Shown: piece after piece, positions 14,118 to 61,100 of the stretch
How positions within the stretch are numbered: the first letter of the stretch is position 1
Layout of the letters: each line of letters starts with the position of its first letter
Assembly: GCA_903813345.2 (NCBI GenBank)
Contig: CAIIXF020000009.1
Coordinates: 1,178,001 to 1,242,000 of the forward strand
Source of the DNA: Owenia fusiformis
Taxonomy: Eukaryota; Annelida; Polychaeta; Sabellida; Oweniidae
Direction: 5' to 3'
DNA: 64,000 bases
Notes under the pieces: model-generated
The model's input: the letters and a program-made list of their open reading frames with translations, nothing else
The model's database searches: none
Told to the model about the DNA's origin: nothing
Program-made: the position numbers and the translations under genes

Positions 14118-17100
14118 TTCCAATTACTCCTTATTATACGATGATTGTTCTTAATATGTCAAAGAAGTCAGAGAAGCAATTTACATAAAAGTGCCGAGTT
14201 GAATAGATTCCCATAGGAACATTATAGTACGGTTCAATGTTGTGACTGTGAACTGGGTCAATATTGTTTGAAGTGTCTAGGAACATTACAGTATGGGTCA
14301 CTCTTGTATGAGCTAATTCTATCCCGTTTTGGAGGCATAGTGACCTTATAGTACGGACCAATCTTGTGTGAGCAGGGCCAATCTTGTGTGAACCCGTGTA
14401 GTCTCATGTTACAGGCATAGGAGCATTATAGAACGGATCAATATTGTGTGAACTGGGTCAATATTATGTGAGGTGCCCAGGAACATTACAGTACGAGGGC
14501 CAATCTTGTGTGAGATAGTCCAATAGTATGTGAGAGGCATAAGAACATTGTAGTATTGGTCAATATCGTGTGAGATGTGTCAATTCTTGTGTATTGTGCC
14601 CAGAAACATTAGAGTACGGTTCACTATTGTGAGTTTTAATTCAATCCCGTGTTGCTGGCATAGGGACCTTATAGTACTGGTCAATCTTGTGTGAGAAGGG
14701 TCAATCTTGTGTGAACCCGTTCAGTCTCATGTGAGAGGCATAGAGGCATTATAGTACGGATCAATATTGTGTGAACTGGGTCAATATTGTTTGAGGTACC
14801 CAGGAACATTACAGTAAGGGTCACTCTTGTATGAGCTAATTCTATCCCGTTTTGGAGGCATAGTGACCTTATAGTATGGGTCAATCTTGTGTGAGAAGGG
14901 CCAATCTTGTGTGAGATAGTCAAATAGTATGTGAGAGGCATAAGATCATTGTAGCATTGGTCAATATCGTGTGAGATGTGTCAATATTGTGTATTGTGCC
15001 CAGAAACATTAGAGTACGGGTCACTATTGTGAGATTTAATTCAATCCCGTGTTGCTGGCAAAGGGACCTTATAGTACTGGTCAATCTTGTGTGAGAAGGG
15101 TCAATCTTGTTTGACATAGTCCAATAGTATCTGAGAGGCATAAGAACATTGTAGTATTGGTCAATATCGTGTGAGATGTGTCAATATTGTGTATTGTGCC
15201 CAGAAACATTAGAGTACGGGTCACTTTTGTGAGATTTGTTTCAATCCCGTGTTGGTGGCATAGGGACCTTATAGTACTGGTCAATCTTGTGTGAGAAGGG
15301 TCAATCTTGTGTGAACCCGTGCAGTCTCATGTTACAGGCATAGGAGCATTATAGAACGGATCAATATTGTGTGAACTGGGTCAATATTATGTGAGGTGCC
15401 CAGGAACATTACAGTGCGAGTCACTCTTGTATGAGCCAATTCCATCCCGTTTTGGAGGCATAGTGACCTTATAGTATGGGTCAATCTTGTGTGAGAAGGG
15501 TCAATCTTGTGTGCGATAGTCCAATAGTATCTGAGAGGCATAAGAACATTGTAGTATTGGTCAATATCGTGTGAGATGTGTCAATATTGTGTATTGTGCC
15601 CAGAAACATTAGAGTACGGGTCACTTTTGTGACATTTAATTCAATCCCGTGTTGGTGGCATAGGGACCTTATAGTACTGGTCAATCTTGTGTGAGAAGGG
15701 TCAATCTTGTGTGAACCCGTGCAGTCTCATGTTACAGGCATAGGAGCATTATAGTACGGATCAATATTGTGTGAACTGGGTCAATATTATGTGAGGTGCC
15801 CAGGAACATTACAGTGCCAGTCACTCTTGTATGAGCTAATTCCATCCCGTTTTGGAGGCATAATGACCTTATAGTATGGGTCAATCTTGTGTGAGCAGGG
15901 CCAAACTTGTGTGAGATTGTCAAATAGTATGTGAGAGGCATAAGAACATTGTAGCATTGGTCAATATCGTGTTAGATGTGTCAATATTGTGTATTTTGCC
16001 CAGAAACATTAGAGTACGGGTCACTATTGTGAGATTTAATTCAATCCCGTGTTGCTGGCATAGGGACCTTATAGTACTGGTCAATCTTGTGTGCGAAGGG
16101 TCAATCTTGTGTGAGATAGTCCAATAGTATCTGAGAGGCATAAGAACATTGTAGTATTGGTCAATATCGTGTGAGATGTGTCAATATTGTGTATTGTGCC
16201 CAGAAACATTAGAGTACGGGTCACTTTTGTGAGATTTAATTCAATCCCGTGTTGGTGGCATAGGGACCTTATAGTACTGGTCAATCTTGTGTGAAAAGGG
16301 TCAATCTTGTGTGAGATAGTCCAATAGTATTTGAGAGGCATAGGAACATTGTAGTATTGGTCAATATCGTGTGAGATGTGTCAATATTGTGTATTGTGCC
16401 CAGAAACATTAGAGTACGGGCCACTATCGTGAGATTTAATTCAATCCCGTGTTGCTGGCATAGGGACCTTATAGTACTGATCAATCTTGTGTGAGAAGGG
16501 TCAATCTTGTGTGAGATAGTCCAATAGTATCTGAGAGGCATAAGAACATTGTAATATTGGTCAATATCGTGTGAGATGTGTCAATATTGTGTATTGTGCC
16601 CAGAAACATTAGAGTACGGGTCACTTTTGTGAGATTTAATTCAATCCCGTGTTGCTGGCATAGGGACCTTATAGTACTGGTCAATCTTATGTGAGAAGGG
16701 TCAATCTTGTGTGAGATAGTCCAATAGTATCTGAGAGGCATAAGAACATTGTAGTATTGGTCAATATTGTGTGAGATGTGTCAATATTGTGTATTTTGCC
16801 CAGAAACATTAGAGTACGGGTCACTATTGTGAGATTTAATTCAACCCCGTGTTGCTGGCATAGGGACCTTATAGTACTGGTCAACCTTGTGTGAGCAGGG
16901 CCAATCTTGTGTGAACCCGTGCAGTCTCGTGTGAGAGGCATAGGAGCATTATAGTTCGGATCAATATTGTGTGAACTGGGTCAATATTGTATGAGGTGCC
17001 CAGGAACATTACAGTATGGGTCACTCTAGTCTTGTATGAGCTAATTCTATCCCGTTTTAGAGGCATAGTGACCTTATAGTACGGGTCAATCTTGTGTGAG

Positions 17101-17170
17101 CAGGGCCAATATTGTGTGATATAGTCCAATAGTATGTGAGAGGCATAAGAACAAAGTAGTACGGGTCAAT
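14118..17170. repeat. Satellite array with exact 200-bp period
   Basis: The same positions recur every 200 bp; for example TCAATCTTGTGTGAGAAGGG sits at 15081, 15281, 15481 and 15681, with variants at 16081, 16281 and 16481. Each 200-bp unit is two related halves of about 100 bp, built from shorter units around TCAATNTTGTGTGAG and CATAGGGACCTTATAGTAC. About 15 units are present, the first few more irregular. Minus-strand ORFs of 67-86 codons recur per unit, but 200 is not a multiple of three, so they change frame every unit and do not form one repeat protein. Confidence 0.9.
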
Positions 17171-37938: not shown

Positions 37939-40900
37939 CTAGTCAATCTTCACAGTCGAGTAAATTTTTCGTACAAAAGAGTTTGTTCCGATATATCCCA
38001 TAGTACCTGGAAAATAAAAATGCATATATGAATGATGCAGAAATATTTGTCATACATCATAGGTGCATAGATATTTACATTAAAACCCTTAAGTATTTAA
38101 CAATTCAAAGCAATCATATATTAAACTAGAGTAGTGAATGCAACTCACCACACATGATTCCAAGGCCCATACTAAACATACCCATGTAGCCAAAATAAAA
38201 CATAGTTTGAAAGAATCCATACATTCTGGAAAACAAACAAGAATATAGATATAGTTTTACTGATCACTTTTGAACAAGGCATAAACAATATATCTAAAGG
38301 AGAGGGGGTTGTTTGTAAAATGAATTCGCTTATTTTTATCAAGTTATACAGTCATTACAAGTTAAACAGTCATTACAAGTTATACAGTCAGTACAAGTTA
38401 TAGTCAGTGCATGTTATACAGTCAGTACAAGTTATACACTCAGTACATATTATACAGTCAGTATAAGTTATACAGTCAGTATAAGTCATACAGTCATTAC
38501 AAGTTATACAGTCAGTATAAGTTATACAGTCATTACAAGATATACTGTCATTACAAGATATAGAGTCATTACAAGATATACAGTCAGTATAAGCTATACA
38601 GTGCTTGCAAGTTATACAGTCAGTACAAGTTATTCAGTCAGTACATGTATACAATCAGTATAAATTATACAGTCATTACAAGATATACAGCCATTACAAG
38701 ATATACAGTCAGTATAAGTTATACAGTCATTACAAGATATACAGTCAGTGGGATTGGGGAATACTCAGACACAAGTGTTAACTTTCACATATACTTATAA
38801 TTGTGTACTTACTTAGTTTTAAAGAAGAAATAGTAGAATGAATACATATAGACGTAGGCAGCTGTGGAGGCTGCCGCTAAGAAGCTGGTCCATTGCCTGA
38901 AACATAAGACAAAATAGTAGAATGAATACATGAAAACAAAGGCAGCTGTGAAGATATGAATCTGGACCATTGCCTGTGTTAGAATGAGTTGTCTTGGGGA
39001 ACGGTTGACCAGTTACCCTACATTTTATGACTTGTACTAGTGGAATAACGTCATAGAAATAGTAGATCTTTACTTACCATCTGTAATCCTCTGCATTGAG
39101 TAAGAAGTAAGTGCAGACAATGGTGACACATATTGTAACAACCAGTAATATGACTAGAACCAGCAGCATGAAGCCGTACACATAGTAGATCTTGTACGCC
39201 CAGAATGAAGTGAATATAAAGTACCTGCAAAAATAACCAGAATAATTAACAACTGGATTAGACAAATGTACTTTAAGATTCATGATTGACAAAAACTAGC
39301 AAAATACTACACCAGGACGTCCAATTAGCCTTCCAATAAAAACTGAATTTTAGAATCATGGGTATTATAATACTTTATTTACATACAATTTATATCAAAT
39401 TGGTCAGTAATTTAAAGGGACAACAACTGTTACTAATAAAGTTACAGCCATTTCTGTCTCAAGGCACAAGTGGCAAAACACAAAACAGTAGGCAGATAAA
39501 ACAAGGTTTACTTACATTTCTATGAATATTGATCCAAAGGGCAGGATTCCACCCAATAACACTATAACAGCTGGCTCCATGAACCTACAACAACAGAACG
39601 ACATAATTATACAACAATATTGTACTGTACACAAATCATGGCTCCATGAACCTACAACAACAGAACGACATAATTATACAACAATATTGTACTGTACACG
39701 AATCATGGCTCAGCGCTTGCATTAGGTTAGAAAATTTGTGAGTCCCAAGGACGCAATTTTTTTAAAAAAGTGTGTCCTTTGAAAAAAAGCGTGTCCCCTA
39801 TTTCTAGCCTGTTTTGAGGTAAAACTTTATTTTAAAAGCATTTTTTACCAAAACACCTTTCAGTTTTTGATTTCTTGCCGCGAATTTAAAACGGAAGTAA
39901 ACGTTAAGTACGGACTGAATAAATGCATGTTCGTTCATTCGACAATGAATACATTTTATTTCATGAATAGCCTAATATTTGTTTCTGAATAGGAAAACTG
40001 TGGCGTGTCATGATTTCAAATCTAAAAATAAACAAAGTCGAAAAAATTCGAGAGAATCATGATTATTTGTAAATGTTCAACATATTGAGCCTTATTTACG
40101 ATTCAAATAAAGGTGAGAGATCATAATTATTTGTTTTTGTTAGGTATTGTTGTAAACACATTGTAGTATTGACCTAAAAAAAATTTGCGTCCAAAAAATG
40201 GAAATATTTTCAATTTTTGCGTCCTCCAAATTATTTTTGAGTCCTTAACATGTACGAGACGCCGTTAATGCAAGCCCTGATGGCTCCATGAACCTACAAC
40301 AGAACAACATAATTATACAACAATATTGTACTGTACACAAATCATGGCTCCATGAACCTATAACAGAACGACATAATTATACAACAACAATATTGTACTG
40401 TACACAAATCATGGCTCCATGAACCTACAACAGAACGACATAATTATACAACAATATTGTACTGTACACAAATCATGGCTCCATGAACCTACAACAGAAC
40501 GACATAATTATACAACAATATTGTACTGTACACAAATCATGGCTCCATGAACCTACAACAACAGAACAACATAATTATACAACAATATTGTACTGTACAC
40601 AAATCATGGCTCCATGAACCTACAACAGAACGACATAATTATACAACAATATTGTACTGTACACAAATCATGGCTCCATGAACCTATAACAGAACGACAT
40701 AATTATACAACAATATTGTACTGTACACAAATCATGGCTCCATGAACCTATAACAGAACGACATAATTATACAACAATATTGTACTGTACACAAATCATG
40801 GCTCCATGAACCTACAACAGAACGACATAATTATACAACAATATTGTACTGTACACGAATCATGGCTCAGCGCTTGCATTAGGTTAGAAAATTTGTGAGT

Positions 40901-43900
40901 CCCAAGGACGCAATTTTTTTTAAAAAGTGTGTCCTTTGAAAAAAAGCGTGTCCCCTATTTCTAGCCTGTTTTGAGGTATAACTTTATTTTAAAAGCATTT
41001 TTTACCAAAACACCTTTCAGTTTTTGATTTCTTGCCGCGAATTTAAAACGGAAGTAAACGTTAAGTACGGACTGAATAAATGCATGTTCGTTCATTCGAC
41101 AATGAATACATTTTATTTCATGAATAGCCTAATATTTGTTTCTGAATAGGAAAACTGTGGCGTGTCATGATTTCAAATCTAAAAATAAACAAAGTCGAAA
41201 AAATTCGAGAGAATCATGATTATTTGTAAATGTTCAACATATTGAGCCTTATTTACGGTTCAAATAAAGGTGAGAGATCATAATTATTTGTTTTTGTTAG
41301 GTATCGTTGTAAACACATTGTAGTATTGACCTAAAAAAAATTTGCGTCCAAAAAACGGAAATATTTTCAATTTTTGCGTCCTCCAAATTATTTTTGAGTC
41401 CTTAACATGTACGAGACGCCGTTAATGCAAGCCCTGATGGCTCCATGAACCTATAACAGAACAACATAATTATACAACAATATTGTACTGTACACAAATC
41501 ATGGCTCCATGAACCTACAACAGAACGACATAAATATACAACAATATTGTACTGTACACAAATCATGGCTCCATGAACCTACAACAGAACGACATAATTA
41601 TACAACAATATTGTACTGTACACAAATCATGGCTCCATGAACCTACAACAGAACGACATAATTATACAACAATATTGTACTGTACACAAATCATGGCTCC
41701 ATGAACCTACAACAGAACGACATAAATATACAACAATATTGTACTGTACACAAATCATGGCTCCATGAACCTACAACAGAACGACATAATTATACAACAA
41801 TATTGTACTGTACACAAATCATGGCTCCATGAACCTACAACAGAACGACATAAATATACAACAATATTGTACTGTACACGAATCATGGCTCCATGAACCT
41901 ACAACAGAACGACATAATTATACAACAATATTGTACTGTACACGAATCATGGCTCCATGAACCTACAACAGAACGACATAAATATACAACAATATTGTAC
42001 TGTACACAAATCATGGCTCCATGAACCTACAACAGAACGACATAATTATACAACAATATTGTGCTGTACACAAATCATGCTACTCCTTTTATTGTAACCA
42101 TTAGTATTAAATTAAATTGTAGGCAATTAAAATGGACTATACGTATATCCAAATGTTAACATTGTTAACAAGTGCACATTTCATTTATGTATCTCACTGA
42201 AAACATTTCATTCTATGTGTGCATCAAAGCTTTGTCCAAGATAAGGCTGAGAACTTACCATTTTTTTTCAGGGATAGGTCGAGGGACTGCATTGATTCGA
42301 CAAGGATAGTTGGGTTGCCCAGCCAGATTACGACCCAATACAGTGCCAACCAGTGTCAAAGGTAGAATGACGAACAGACATATACACGTCACAGCAACCT
42401 GTAAACAAAGTCATGTTTACATCACTGCTTTTTAGGTATGTTCTAATAATACAACAGATATGGTATCCAAGTTCCAACACTACTAATAGGATACCCAACA
42501 GTAGTCCATTCTTTCTATGAAGCCATGTGTTTCCTAAATATAAAAACACTCACCATGGTTCCCAATGGGATTGCTCTTGAAGTGTGGTAACTAATCGCAA
42601 TAAAATTGATGAAGAATGCTGTGCCACAAACGATAAATGGGATCAAAGAGGCGCTGATGACCATCTGCTTGATCCAAAGCTTGCCACCCATTCGGGAATA
42701 CAAACTGCCACCAAAGTAGCCGTTTACAGGGGATGTAGCTGCATAAACAAAGATAGCTGTGCTCAACAGGGAACCACGCCTGAAAGTGAATAAAGCACAT
42801 AACCATTAGGGGAACATCATGAAATATGGACCAGTTATCATGTCATCATGCCTAAATCAAGCTGATTCAGATGGAAAGAAACCGTCTCCATGCTTCCTCC
42901 AGTGATTATATCTATATCTATAAAATTACAATTTTAGTGCAGTGTAGCCAGTGCAAGGATTTATTTTAATCAATTTCAACTAATAATAATTCCAGAACTT
43001 AATTAATGCTCATAGTATAAATAAATGCTACATTAAATTAAACTTATAAATTTCACTTACTCTGTGTAAAGCTCGCCCAAGATAGCAAACATAATAACAG
43101 CCAAGGATACAAAGCATATCTGATATCCTGTCCCCACTAGGGAGGAGAATAACAATGGATTAGTAGCTGGTCGGAACACATCTCCATGAATCTGTTTCCA
43201 ACCATACTCATCTCCTAAATCTCGTTCCTGGAAATATTGCAAATGATTGCATCAATTTTAGATAAGGGAAATGTAGAAGTACACATTTTTTCATATTACT
43301 ACAGTTATTCCTAACAGATCAATCAAATGTATATCCATTATGATAAATGTATCAATTGTATCCATTTTAAGATACATGTATGATATGGATATATACTGCC
43401 AAATGAACTTGGCTCCAAAAAGGTGCACATTCACTTAGTGACACAGTATTTCTCTCTAACATTGAAATGTTGGTTACAACAGAGATGTAAAATTTACAAA
43501 GTCAACCTGTGGAAAGGTCAACAGTAATGTACCTACCATATCATCGAGGTCATCATCTTTGCTGTATCTTGCATAGTCCTTCCTCAGAGTTCTCATAAGA
43601 ATCATACTGACGAGACCAACCAGGAAGATGACCATCATAAACGAGTTGAAGATTGAGAACCAATGAATCTGAAAGGTAAAATTTGTTCATAAATATACAT
43701 CCTGATGTAAAGAGAGGGGAATTAATCAATAATTTCACATAAATATCACACTATGATTTCAGTTATTTTTCATTTCATGTATCTTTTCATCTTGTTGTTC
43801 AATTTTTCAAAATTTCACTCACTTATGATTTGCGGACTTTTCGAAGAACTTTAATTCTCAACCATTTTTAATCTATTATGTAAAAACTAAAAAATTCTCT

Positions 43901-55329: not shown

Positions 55330-57340
55330 GCAATCCTACGTCACCACTATTCAAGGAAGGTCCATGGTGTCACTATTGAATGAAGGTCATTGTCGCCACA
55401 ATTTTTGGCCCCTGTTGAATGGTGAAGGTCGCTAAAATATCTTTCAATAGTGGTGACATTGGCAAACACTTGGTTCCTGACCTAAAAACCTATCGTAGGC
55501 TATGTATATGGGAATCTATCCAATTTTTTAATGAATCAAGGAAGGTCTATATCTAATGAAAATAACTTATTTTAGTGCAGTTACTGATATACTGAACACG
55601 ATGTAATTATGTTACGTGCGTTCTCTTTTTCGGATCAAAAGTGACATATCATTTTTAGCACACCGGCCATTGGAAAGCATTTTTTGTCATTTCGAATGTA
55701 GTTTTTACCAGAATGATGTTTAACAACTGAGATATCAAACATTACGTTACGCGTTAATCTTTAAGAAAAAAAAACGACGTGACCGCGGTGTATATTTGTT
55801 TTTTTCATACTGCATATAATGCCGGGGTGTTACGTTCGTTTCCTCACCATGATCCACCACAATAAAAGTGGTCTTATAACAACCATAGACCGATATATCA
55901 CTTAAAATATGGCATTGCAGAAGGTGTTACGTTTTTCATTGTGATTTAAAATGGTTAAACACATTTTAATCACGACCTTGTAAAGGTACTTAGTCAATGG
56001 CCTCCTAGTTTTTAGTTTTATCTTCCTCTGTCTTCTAAATTAGCATCTATTCATCTTCATGTAAAAGACCGACAGCCGACCACGTGTACCCAACTTTGGA
56101 GAGTGACTGGTCAGTAGTCAGCGATCGGTCTTTTCCGTCAACCCGAATGTAGGTCCATGTCGCCATCATTGAATAACGGCCCAAGTCGTAATTATTGAAT
56201 GAAGGTCCATGTCACCACTATTGGATGTGTTAAATGCCCGTGTTGTCCCTCTTGATTGACAGTCAATGTCAACACTTTTGAATGTCATAAATGTCCACGT
56301 TGTCACTATTGAATGAAGGTCCATGTCATCACTATTGAATGTAGGTCCATATTGCCATTATTGAATGGGGGTTAATGCCACCACTTTTGGATGAAGGTTT
56401 ATGTCACCATTAATAAATGTAGGTCCGATTGCCACGATTGAATGACAGTCAGTGTCACCACTATTGAATGTGATAAATGTCCCTGTTGTCACTTTTGAAC
56501 GGGGATCAATGCCATCACTTTTTAATGAGGGTTCAAGTCACCATTATTAAATGTCGGTCCACTACTGAACGGGGATCAATGCCACCACTTATGGATGAGG
56601 ATCTATGTCACCATTATTGAATGAAGGTCCATTTCGCCACTTTCAAATGACAGTCAATGTCACCACGATTGAATGTGATAAATGTCCCTGTTGTCACTTT
56701 TGAATGGGGATCAATGCCATCACTTTTTAATCAGGGTTCAAGTCACCATTATTAAATATAGGTCCACGACCACTATTGAACGGGGATCAATGCCACCACT
56801 TTTGGATGAGGGTTCAAGTCACCATTATTAAATGTAGGTCCACTATTGAACGGGGATCAATGCCACCACTTTTGGATGACCACCACTTTTGGATGAGGGT
56901 CTATGTCACCATTATTGAATGAAGGTCCATTTCGCCACTTTCAAATGACAGTCAATGTCACCACTATTGAATGTGATAAATGTCCCTGTTGTTACTTTTG
57001 AATGAGGATCAATGCCATCACTTTTTAATGAGGGTTCATGTCACCATTATTAAATGTAGGTCCACTATTGAACGGGGATCAATGCCACCACTTTTAGATG
57101 ACCACCACTTTTGGATGAGGGTCTATGTCACTATTATTGAATGAAGGTCCATTTCGCCACTTTCAAATGACAGTCAATGTCACCACTATTGAATGTGATA
57201 AATGTTCCTGTTGTTACTTTTGAATGAGGATCAATGCCATCACTTTTAATGAGGGTTCATGTCACCATTATTAAATGTAAGTCCACTATTGAACGGGGAT
57301 CAATGCCACCACTTTTGGATGAGGGTCTATGTCACCTATC
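55330..57340. repeat. Degenerate ~24-bp tandem repeat with higher-order structure
   Basis: Units of the type AAGGTCCATGTCACCACTAT / TGAATG appear diffusely from about 55330 and densely from 56150. In the dense part, a longer block with GATAAATGTCCCTGTTGT and GATCAATGCCATCACTTTTT recurs four times, roughly 210-290 bp apart (about 56470, 56690, 56975 and 57200). An 83-codon ORF at 57259-57510 starts inside and is not supported. Confidence 0.8.
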
Positions 57341-58118: not shown

Positions 58119-61100
58119 TTAACCAACAACCAAAACGCCATTTCCAGGGAAGCTATGTTCTGGTACTTCTAGATTAAGGGGGGCAGGGCCTTTGCGGATA
58201 CGTCCTGATGCGTCGTAATGAGAGCCATGACAGGGGCAATAATAGCCTCCATATTCACCTGCATTGGCGATAGGAACACATCCTGGAATTTCAATAAAAC
58301 ATGATATGTAGTATTATACAATATTGGGCAAGCAGTTTGGCCTTTTGTTGTAAATGAATATGGATGCCATTTGCCTGCATTTAAGTTAAAACATGTCCAT
58401 TATTGTGGGTAGGTACTTCCTTCAAGAAAGGTACATGCCACCTGTTGGTGATGATGTCATTCTTACAATTTCAGGGAATAGGATAAACTAAATATTACTG
58501 TATTTCATTTCAAGAGCAAACAATTCTGTCTTGACAAACATTGCTGTCTTTTGTATACTATCTGGCCAATAATACCCTTACAAGTATATAGGGCTCACCA
58601 AAAGGGGCAAAAAACAAGATTCATTGGAAAGGAACTAAAAGCTGCAATATTTCGAAACCAATCTTGGAGTCTTTGTCTGGAAGCATGAATGCAATAATTG
58701 AGGATGACTCTCCACAAACTTGCACATTTGCCTGGCCAGCAAATTGATGTAAGGGTGTTAAGAAAACAACTGTACATACCTAAATGTGTACACACTCCTA
58801 ATAAAATCAGCCATTTGTCATCTTTAACACGATCCTCATCTCTCTCTGGATCGCGAAGTTGGGCAATATCTACAGCACGTACCTCCTCTATTTCATCACT
58901 TGGTCTGTGACGAACAAACAAAGGTTTGCCTGCAACATGTCAATAATATTTATTGTATAACCTATTGGCACTAAGAAGAATGTCCCTTCCCTCGATTTAC
59001 ATTTCAGTAATATTTATTGTATAACCTATTGGCACTTCACAAGACTGTCCCTTCCCTCAAAAATCTGCCCACATTAAATAGACCCATTGGCATACCTCTC
59101 CATTTAAATACAGAAATCTGCCCACATTAAATAGACCCATTGGCATACCTCTTCATTTAAATACAGAAATCTGCCAACATTAAATAGACCCATTGGCATA
59201 CCTCTCCATTTAAATACAGAAATCTGCCCACATTAAATAGACCCATTGGCATACCTCTCCATTTGAATACAGAAATCTGCCCACATTAAATAGACCCATT
59301 GGCATACCTCTCCATTTAAATACAGAAATCTGCCCACATTAAATAGACCTATTGGCATACATAAAATAGACCCATTGGCATACCTCTCCATTTGAATACA
59401 GCACTTTTTCCTTCTGGCACATCTTCCATGTTAATTTCAATTTTTGCCAGAGCAAGCACATCAGCTGATGCACTGAGGCTGCCGATAAACTCTTGCACTA
59501 CACTCTTTCCACCATATGCAAGGCCAAGACCACTGCCTGAAAGAAGAAATGATTCTGTGAACCCAGTTGAACTTTTGTTTTACCTAGAAGTGATATACAT
59601 GTATATCGCTTTGAAACATGCTTTTGAGGTAAAGATGAAAATTAAATAACGAGAGCAAAAATATACTTTCTGGATTAAATCAGTAAATATTTACAAATGA
59701 AGTACACATTTTTGAAAAACTATGAGAATAGCAGAGCAGAATAAGAATAACCACTTTCTGTAATGAAATAGAACAAATGAAATACAATGTGATGTATTGT
59801 GACAATGATTTGTTTAAAGGAAAAGAACATCTTTGAAAAGCTGTTGCAGAGAGAAACAAAATATTGTATACAGAGATTGTATAAATCAATCAGATTGTGC
59901 TAAACGTACCTATCATAGTGAGATATGTAAAGCTTTTCCTTGAGACTTGTGTTGCTTCAGATTTTGCACCAGTGTTTTTCACACTGGGGCGTCTATATTC
60001 TGAGAAATCGGGCACGCTGATGTCTGAGTGAGCAAACCTCACCTGGGTAGATCCTAAAACAGAAATAATAGAAAACATGGAATTTGGCTCCCATTGACTA
60101 GATACATATAAAATAATAGGTATTTCAAAATGATACGCATAAATTTTTCTTATGTTAGCATCTAATATTCATTCGTGTAAAATATTCATGAATCAAAGTG
60201 CCAAATATTCATAGGTGTCAAATATTCATGAATCAGAGTGTGAAATATGCATTAGCATCAGCCATCAAATAAAGAGCAAATTTTATTTTAACTAATTAAG
60301 ATGCAATAAATACTGGGAAAACAACAAAAAACTAATTAACCATCAAAGTCCTCAATTTGTTCATACAATTGGCTTTGCAGCAATGCTTTACAGCCTAAAT
60401 ATGGAACTCCACTAAAATTGCCATCTTTAAGAAAAGCTATGTAAAATTCCCTTTCAAAAACGACCCTAACTAACAACCATTGATTCTCCACCCAAGGAAT
60501 CATGCTCAGGCCTCAAAAAGTCTGGGAGTGCTAATAGGAACATGGGCACCAATAACGGAAATATGGTAGCTTTAATTTGGCGCTATTAACTTGGCCGATT
60601 GGGTAAATTTGAAATGTTGGCTGCTATTAAATTTTGCAATCGAACCATCAGTAAATCTTTAAATCTGGTATCTTTCGAAGAAACCAGATGTAATCTCAGT
60701 TCAATAATGCTCTTAATGCACTCGAAACTCATTTTGAAACACTGGCTGATTTTAAGATTGATTTGTATTGTATATATGCAATCAAGACAGCCATTACTTT
60801 TCAATTGTGGCATTGAGAGAAGGTAAGAATGCATGTTCGGAATTGTGATGCATTCCTCAATAACCCAGATGCGAGTAGAAATAATCTTGATTTACGTCAT
60901 TAAAAATTCAAAATTCAGTCAAAGTAATATCATATTTGAAATCTACATGTAAAATTACATCTAGAAATGTGGTTTTAAAAAGTGTTTATCAACTTTGAAA
61001 AATTACTTTTCTTCGAAAATGTGACTTCTAGCTCGGGGAGATTCCCCATAGACCCCATGCTATAAAATCACAAAAAATGAAATATCTTTTCTTTTAGTGG

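Follow-up and report, generated by a model that had tools for sequence, protein, structure and literature searches.

A junction-spanning minisatellite with 20 decoy acceptor sites in intron 9 of an EMP70-family gene of Owenia fusiformis

The host gene and its intron 9 array

The window analysed here, a 64,000-nucleotide stretch of an Owenia fusiformis contig, carries on its minus strand a gene that encodes, over exons b to m joined in frame, a protein of 490 residues without internal stops. The product matches Pfam EMP70 (3.3e-163). Within this family we take the gene to be TM9SF3, a name that follows the label of the first-pass annotation. For the 173-residue piece encoded by exons 9-13, no relatives of solved structure were found at E 0.001. 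The numbering used for exon 10 and intron 9 should hold if one exon precedes exon a, the first one located. Exon 10, the 69-nt exon to which the real acceptor belongs, joins both neighbour exons in frame, and the gene is open across the junction. The exon start reads TTGTTGTAG/GTTCATGGAGCCAGCTG (here and below, a slash marks the cut), and the remaining 56 nt of the exon are single copy within the window. Among the 11 other introns measured in the gene, 10 are 142-587 nt long and one has 1607 nt. Intron 9 has 2674 nt (Table 1), and would be about 230 nt long once the array and its inserts are subtracted; 179 unique intron 9 bases occur once in the window.

Table 1. Coordinates of the features at the intron 9/exon 10 junction (positions of the window)
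Feature	Position	Strand	Remarks
Exon 9 (exon h), upstream of the array	42259..42398	minus	In frame; ends AAAAAAAATG/GTAAGT, donor ATG/GTAAGT; single copy in window
Intron 9	39585..42258	minus	2674 nt
Repeat block 1, farthest from exon 10	41437..42079	minus	10 junction copies
Insert B, 569-bp, MITE-like	40868..41436	minus	14-bp terminal inverted repeats, 13/14 match; duplicated AGCCAT flanks
Repeat block 2	40280..40868	minus	9 junction copies
Insert A, 569-bp	39711..40279	minus	Differs from insert B at 5/569 positions; sits where B does in the unit
Repeat block 3	39572..39711	minus	2 copies: exon-adjacent decoy unit and real junction unit
Nearest decoy acceptor	39640..39653	minus	First exonic base 39651; no difference from real site over -48 to +13
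Real acceptor AG/GTTCATGGAGCC	39573..39586	minus	First exonic base 39584
Donor-like GTT/GTAGGT	39583-39591, then 16 more up to 42033	minus	17/21 junction copies
Exon 10 (exon i)	39516..39584	minus	69 nt; donor AAT/GTAAGT; first 13 bases within repeat

The array spans 39572-42079, with repeats totalling 1372 bp in three TRF blocks. About 20 tandem decoy acceptors had been announced at 39573-42078 in the first-pass annotation, and both the number and the position are confirmed: the 14-mer AGGTTCATGGAGCC is present in 21 exact copies in the window, all on the minus strand, against a mean of 0.17 and a largest value of 2 in 100 shuffles with 2 mismatches allowed. Allowing up to 2 mismatches in the window itself revealed no copies beyond the 21 exact ones. 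These exact AG/GTTCATGGAGCC copies correspond to the real acceptor of the 69-nt exon and to 20 decoys, a motif-level term that we use for sequence copies seen in DNA alone. As announced too, near-identical acceptor-exon starts precede the real one, in 20 copies, down to the decoy with first exonic base 39651 (hereafter decoy 39651), which matches the real site at every base from -48 to +13.

Units are spaced by 64 nt, with some 67-nt steps (4 of the 21 copies have a unit length of 67 nt). Spacing rises to 639 and 642 nt at two places, where the 569-bp inserts lie. The 64-nt unit is made of 51 intronic and 13 exonic nt. The 64-bp unit with its AG and exon start described in the first-pass annotation is thus correct, except that the exonic part (GTTCATGGAGCCA) has 13 bases and not 12. 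Its extent of about 2.5 kb into the intron is right as well, but the two inserts went unmentioned, and they split the 1372 bp into 2, 9 and 10 units. The AG/GT splice signal is kept in all 21 copies. Among the 70 alignment columns, 11 vary between copies (6 of them as gap columns of two 3-bp indels), and the last 16 are constant. We considered a special conservation of the junction core and rejected it, as overall variation, judged by eye, was too low to call constraint.

Tandem repeats make up about 16% of the window (26 arrays, merged by hand), with units of up to 222 bp, for example in arrays 14496-17170 and 56145-57322. When the 24 founding units were placed at random relative to the 26 TM9SF3 exon edges, at least one edge was covered in 41% of trials, and random placement of whole arrays covered at least one in 81% of trials (arrays and units being those merged by hand). 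With such rates in a window of this repeat content, the position of the array is in itself unsurprising, and its rarity was rejected as an argument. Rfam at gathering scores and tRNA scans gave no matches, and an exact pattern of the repeat unit had 0 matches in viral contigs. Elsewhere in the window, an open frame is present on the minus strand at 58595-58939; we assume a resemblance to the Rieske subunit of the cytochrome bc1 complex, and this 114-residue frame has no Pfam match at E 0.001.

Inserts and history of the array

Terminal inverted repeats together with a target-site duplication, as expected of a MITE, are found for the 569-bp insert: relative to uninterrupted units, both inserts are flanked by a doubled 6-bp AGCCAT. 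No third copy of the insert exists within the window, and an exact pattern of the insert end gave 0 matches in viral contigs. On the minus strand, a unit with the ATTCGTG variant comes after each insert. Because the two inserts share both their position in the unit and this adjacent variant, a block duplication that included the insert is indicated. Blocks 1 and 2 nevertheless differ, by their unit number (10 vs 9), by point variants and by 3-bp indels. Along part of block 1 (41437-42079), AATTATG and ATTTATG unit variants alternate, which suggests growth in two-unit steps.

Comparison of the units gives an intron edge TAGCATGATT, an exon edge GAGCCAGCTG and a hybrid GAGCCATGATT, a combination consistent with a tandem duplication with a CA overlap. 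The 64-bp junction segment (the last 51 nt of the intron and the first 13 nt of the exon) would have been duplicated in tandem, with breakpoints at the apparent 2-bp CA overlap yielding the first extra unit. The junction unit would then have been amplified to 21 copies; the MITE-like element would have entered one unit, and its block would later have been duplicated once. We infer this order of events from the units themselves. Tandem duplication is described as a route of intron gain (PMC4974935).

Splice-site strength and consequences of decoy use

Splice matrices were built from this one gene, with 12 acceptors, and with 12 donors or, when that of exon 10 was omitted, 11. The acceptor matrix is a rough one, made from the 12 other acceptors of the gene. 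It gave the real site 3.26, 18 of the 20 decoys 5.55-6.86, one decoy 3.26 and one 2.32; leave-one-out scores of the 12 other acceptors ranged from -0.78 to 17.92. The real acceptor ranked 45th among the 108 AGs scored in intron 9, tied with decoy 39651. The first decoy met is 232 nt from the exon 9 donor, a distance like that of most other introns of the gene. The lower score of the real site compared to 18 decoys, and this early first decoy, argue against local strength or first arrival as the selector. A branch-point pattern scan gave no match, so that no branch point is proposed.

Within TTGTAG/GTTC lies a donor-like GTT/GTAGGT, whose cut is 4 nt upstream of the acceptor cut; the four junction copies that read TTATAG are without it. 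This motif scored 6.19 in the 11-donor matrix, which omits exon 10, vs 6.97 for the exon 10 donor, and a GTAGGT donor occurs at exons c and e of the gene. For 14 of the 20 decoys the next GTT/GTAGGT is found 60 or 63 nt downstream, and a single repeat unit could in principle be defined, judging from its motifs, as a short stop-containing exon. This spacing weakens a simple exon-definition argument, and the copy-number-dependent version of the expression brake considered below rests on it. Recursive splicing at AG/GT was rejected, the regenerated donor ATG/GTTCAT scoring -0.37. The dual-specific sites of UBC and VCX3A (PMC10809524) are similar in that a repeat-unit motif is readable as donor and acceptor. 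In what that source describes, a single AGGT core is read both ways, whereas here the donor-like GT precedes the acceptor cut by 4 nt, and judging by the matrix no AGGT core would act as both; moreover the repeats here are intronic and contain stop codons, unlike those of UBC and VCX3A.

Joining exon 9 to a decoy leads to an in-frame stop in all 20 cases, 13 nt past the junction for 18 of them (peptide F M E P stop), and 46 nt past it for the two decoys that run into an insert. The exon implied from the decoy to the exon 10 donor would be 778-2511 nt long for 19 of the 20, and 136 nt for decoy 39651. By implied exon length, decoy 39651 is the only plausible rival to the real acceptor, and as it equals the real site over 61 nt (-48 to +13), discrimination between the two must come from outside that stretch.

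Known relatives and competing explanations

The array is of a known kind, that of the junction-spanning 'mirages' of amphioxus, and a large example of it. As in the mirages of Adh3, BflGb6, BflGb9, TnC and PGBD5, a minisatellite lies across an intron-exon boundary with an intact exon adjacent. Two traits of the kind are found here, namely tandem repeats across the boundary (51 + 13 nt per unit, 21 copies) and splice signals retained in the repeats; AG/GT signals are reported for many amphioxus repeats, and AG/GT stands in 21 of 21 here. The published excerpts give 6 and 3 copies for two BflGb6 haplotypes and 2-7 for PGBD5 assemblies, vs 21 here, with units of 150-160 bp (BflGb6), 60 and 108 bp (PGBD5) and 10-72 bp (Adh3), vs 64 bp. 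A transposon-like insert duplicated inside the array is a feature of this locus, unlike the amphioxus mirages as those excerpts present them, and the hosts they describe are cephalochordates (PMC3087553, PMC3902484). According to the same excerpts, Adh3 data and globin RT-PCR indicate that regular splicing is apparently undisturbed by mirages, whose clusters differ in length between haplotypes (PMC3087553); the Adh and TnC mirages are likewise without splicing interference, PGBD5 being a further case (PMC3902484).

Human CBS offers two other comparisons, here as given in extracts of the reports. In 844ins68, the intron 7/exon 8 junction is duplicated in tandem over 68 bp, the distal site is strongly favoured and the mRNA is normal (PMC2630376; the sites are termed donor sites there, though exon 8 starts at an acceptor). 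It has two copies, vs 21 here, and an insert is not part of that description. The 31-bp CBS VNTR is also a multi-copy repeat at a boundary, that of exon 13/intron 13 (PMC5188458, PMC2630376). It differs by lying on the donor side, with 16-21 units, and by a copy number reported to reduce activity.

One alternative is an array acting as a brake on expression, in which a sizeable share of transcripts goes to the decoys or to a 60-nt poison exon and then to NMD, with more copies giving less output. The early stop after all 20 decoys, the rough matrix, in which 18 of the 20 outscore the real acceptor, and the donor-like motif that follows 14 of the 20 at 60-63 nt all point that way, as does the reported lowering of CBS activity by the 31-bp repeat (PMC5188458). 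We nevertheless consider a brake unlikely: the exons implied by 19 of the 20 decoys would reach 778 nt or more unless internal donors work, and the available accounts report amphioxus mirages without splicing disturbance (PMC3087553, PMC3902484) and normal mRNA from the CBS 68-bp duplication (PMC2630376). Somewhat more doubtful still is the fuller, copy-number-dependent version, where each unit is a poison acceptor and mostly a possible 60-nt poison exon, and where array length varies among individuals and sets the mRNA level.

An assembly artefact, such as two haplotypes placed in tandem, is an improbable source of the copy number or of the second 569-bp insert and its block. The 5/569 difference between the inserts could equally be allelic, and the draft-genome version of one globin mirage is described as apparently aberrantly assembled (PMC3087553). 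However, the window has just one copy each of exon 9, of the exon 10 body and of the 179 unique intron bases, and the two blocks can be told apart by their unit counts (9 and 10) as well as by point variants and 3-bp indels. About ten decoys remain even after one block and its insert are taken away. Block differences and single-copy flanks thus speak against a plain assembly copy; mixed haplotypes may occur inside the array. We give very little credit to RNA folding as the means by which decoys are hidden, neighbour units pairing with each other and the last unit being left without a partner. A pair of units reaches -33.5 kcal/mol (z -2.51 vs shuffles, compared to z 0.08 for the real junction context), but tandem shuffled-unit controls fold as well in 33/300 (two units) and 28/300 (three units) cases. 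In the shorter of two windows, the real acceptor region was less paired than 19 of the 20 decoys (0.506 vs mean 0.392, sd 0.074), whereas in the longer one it fell within the decoy range (0.37 vs mean 0.35, sd 0.086). At the cut itself, the four bases of the real site were in both windows less accessible than those of most decoys. One window leaned towards this explanation, and after the repeated-shuffled-unit control it was unsupported.

A tolerated junction-spanning minisatellite, or mirage, that arose by duplication, with the exon-proximal acceptor being used and decoy products removed, is in our opinion the probable explanation. The acceptor adjoining the exon 10 body with its GTAAGT donor would still yield a correct mRNA, and the array would be tolerated for that reason. 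Exon definition would favour the exon-proximal acceptor, just one decoy being within ordinary exon length of the donor, and the last acceptor is presumably the chosen site. Decoy products would carry an early stop codon, so nonsense-mediated decay should clear them. The anatomy of the array, its duplication pattern and the reading frames are direct observations. The 21 exact junction copies with an open EMP70-matching frame support this explanation, as do the stops after 20/20 decoys, the implied exons of 778-2511 nt for 19/20, and the mirage and CBS 844ins68 precedents. Against it stand the 18/20 decoys that outscore the real acceptor in a rough 12-site matrix, and the decoy at 232 nt, since splicing by intron definition or on a first-come basis would lean towards decoys; single units might also be recognised through exon definition, given the donor-like motif of 14/20 decoys. 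The first-pass annotation had proposed that either sequences of exon 10 select the true site or mis-splicing is frequent. Choice against decoy 39651 does require sequence or distance outside the shared stretch, but the alternative is incomplete, as it omits position relative to the donor: for 19 of the 20 decoys the implied exon has 778 nt or more, and the two-copy human case favours the distal site. The stop after every decoy, the overlapping donor-like motif and the two inserts had also been overlooked.

The locus represents a natural and extreme splice-site competition, with twenty extra acceptors in one intron and wrong choices marked by a stop. If splicing is accurate here, distance to the downstream donor or sequence past +13 must suffice for the choice; if it is inaccurate, copy number would tune expression. 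The locus also shows how a junction duplication can expand with no change to the encoded protein.
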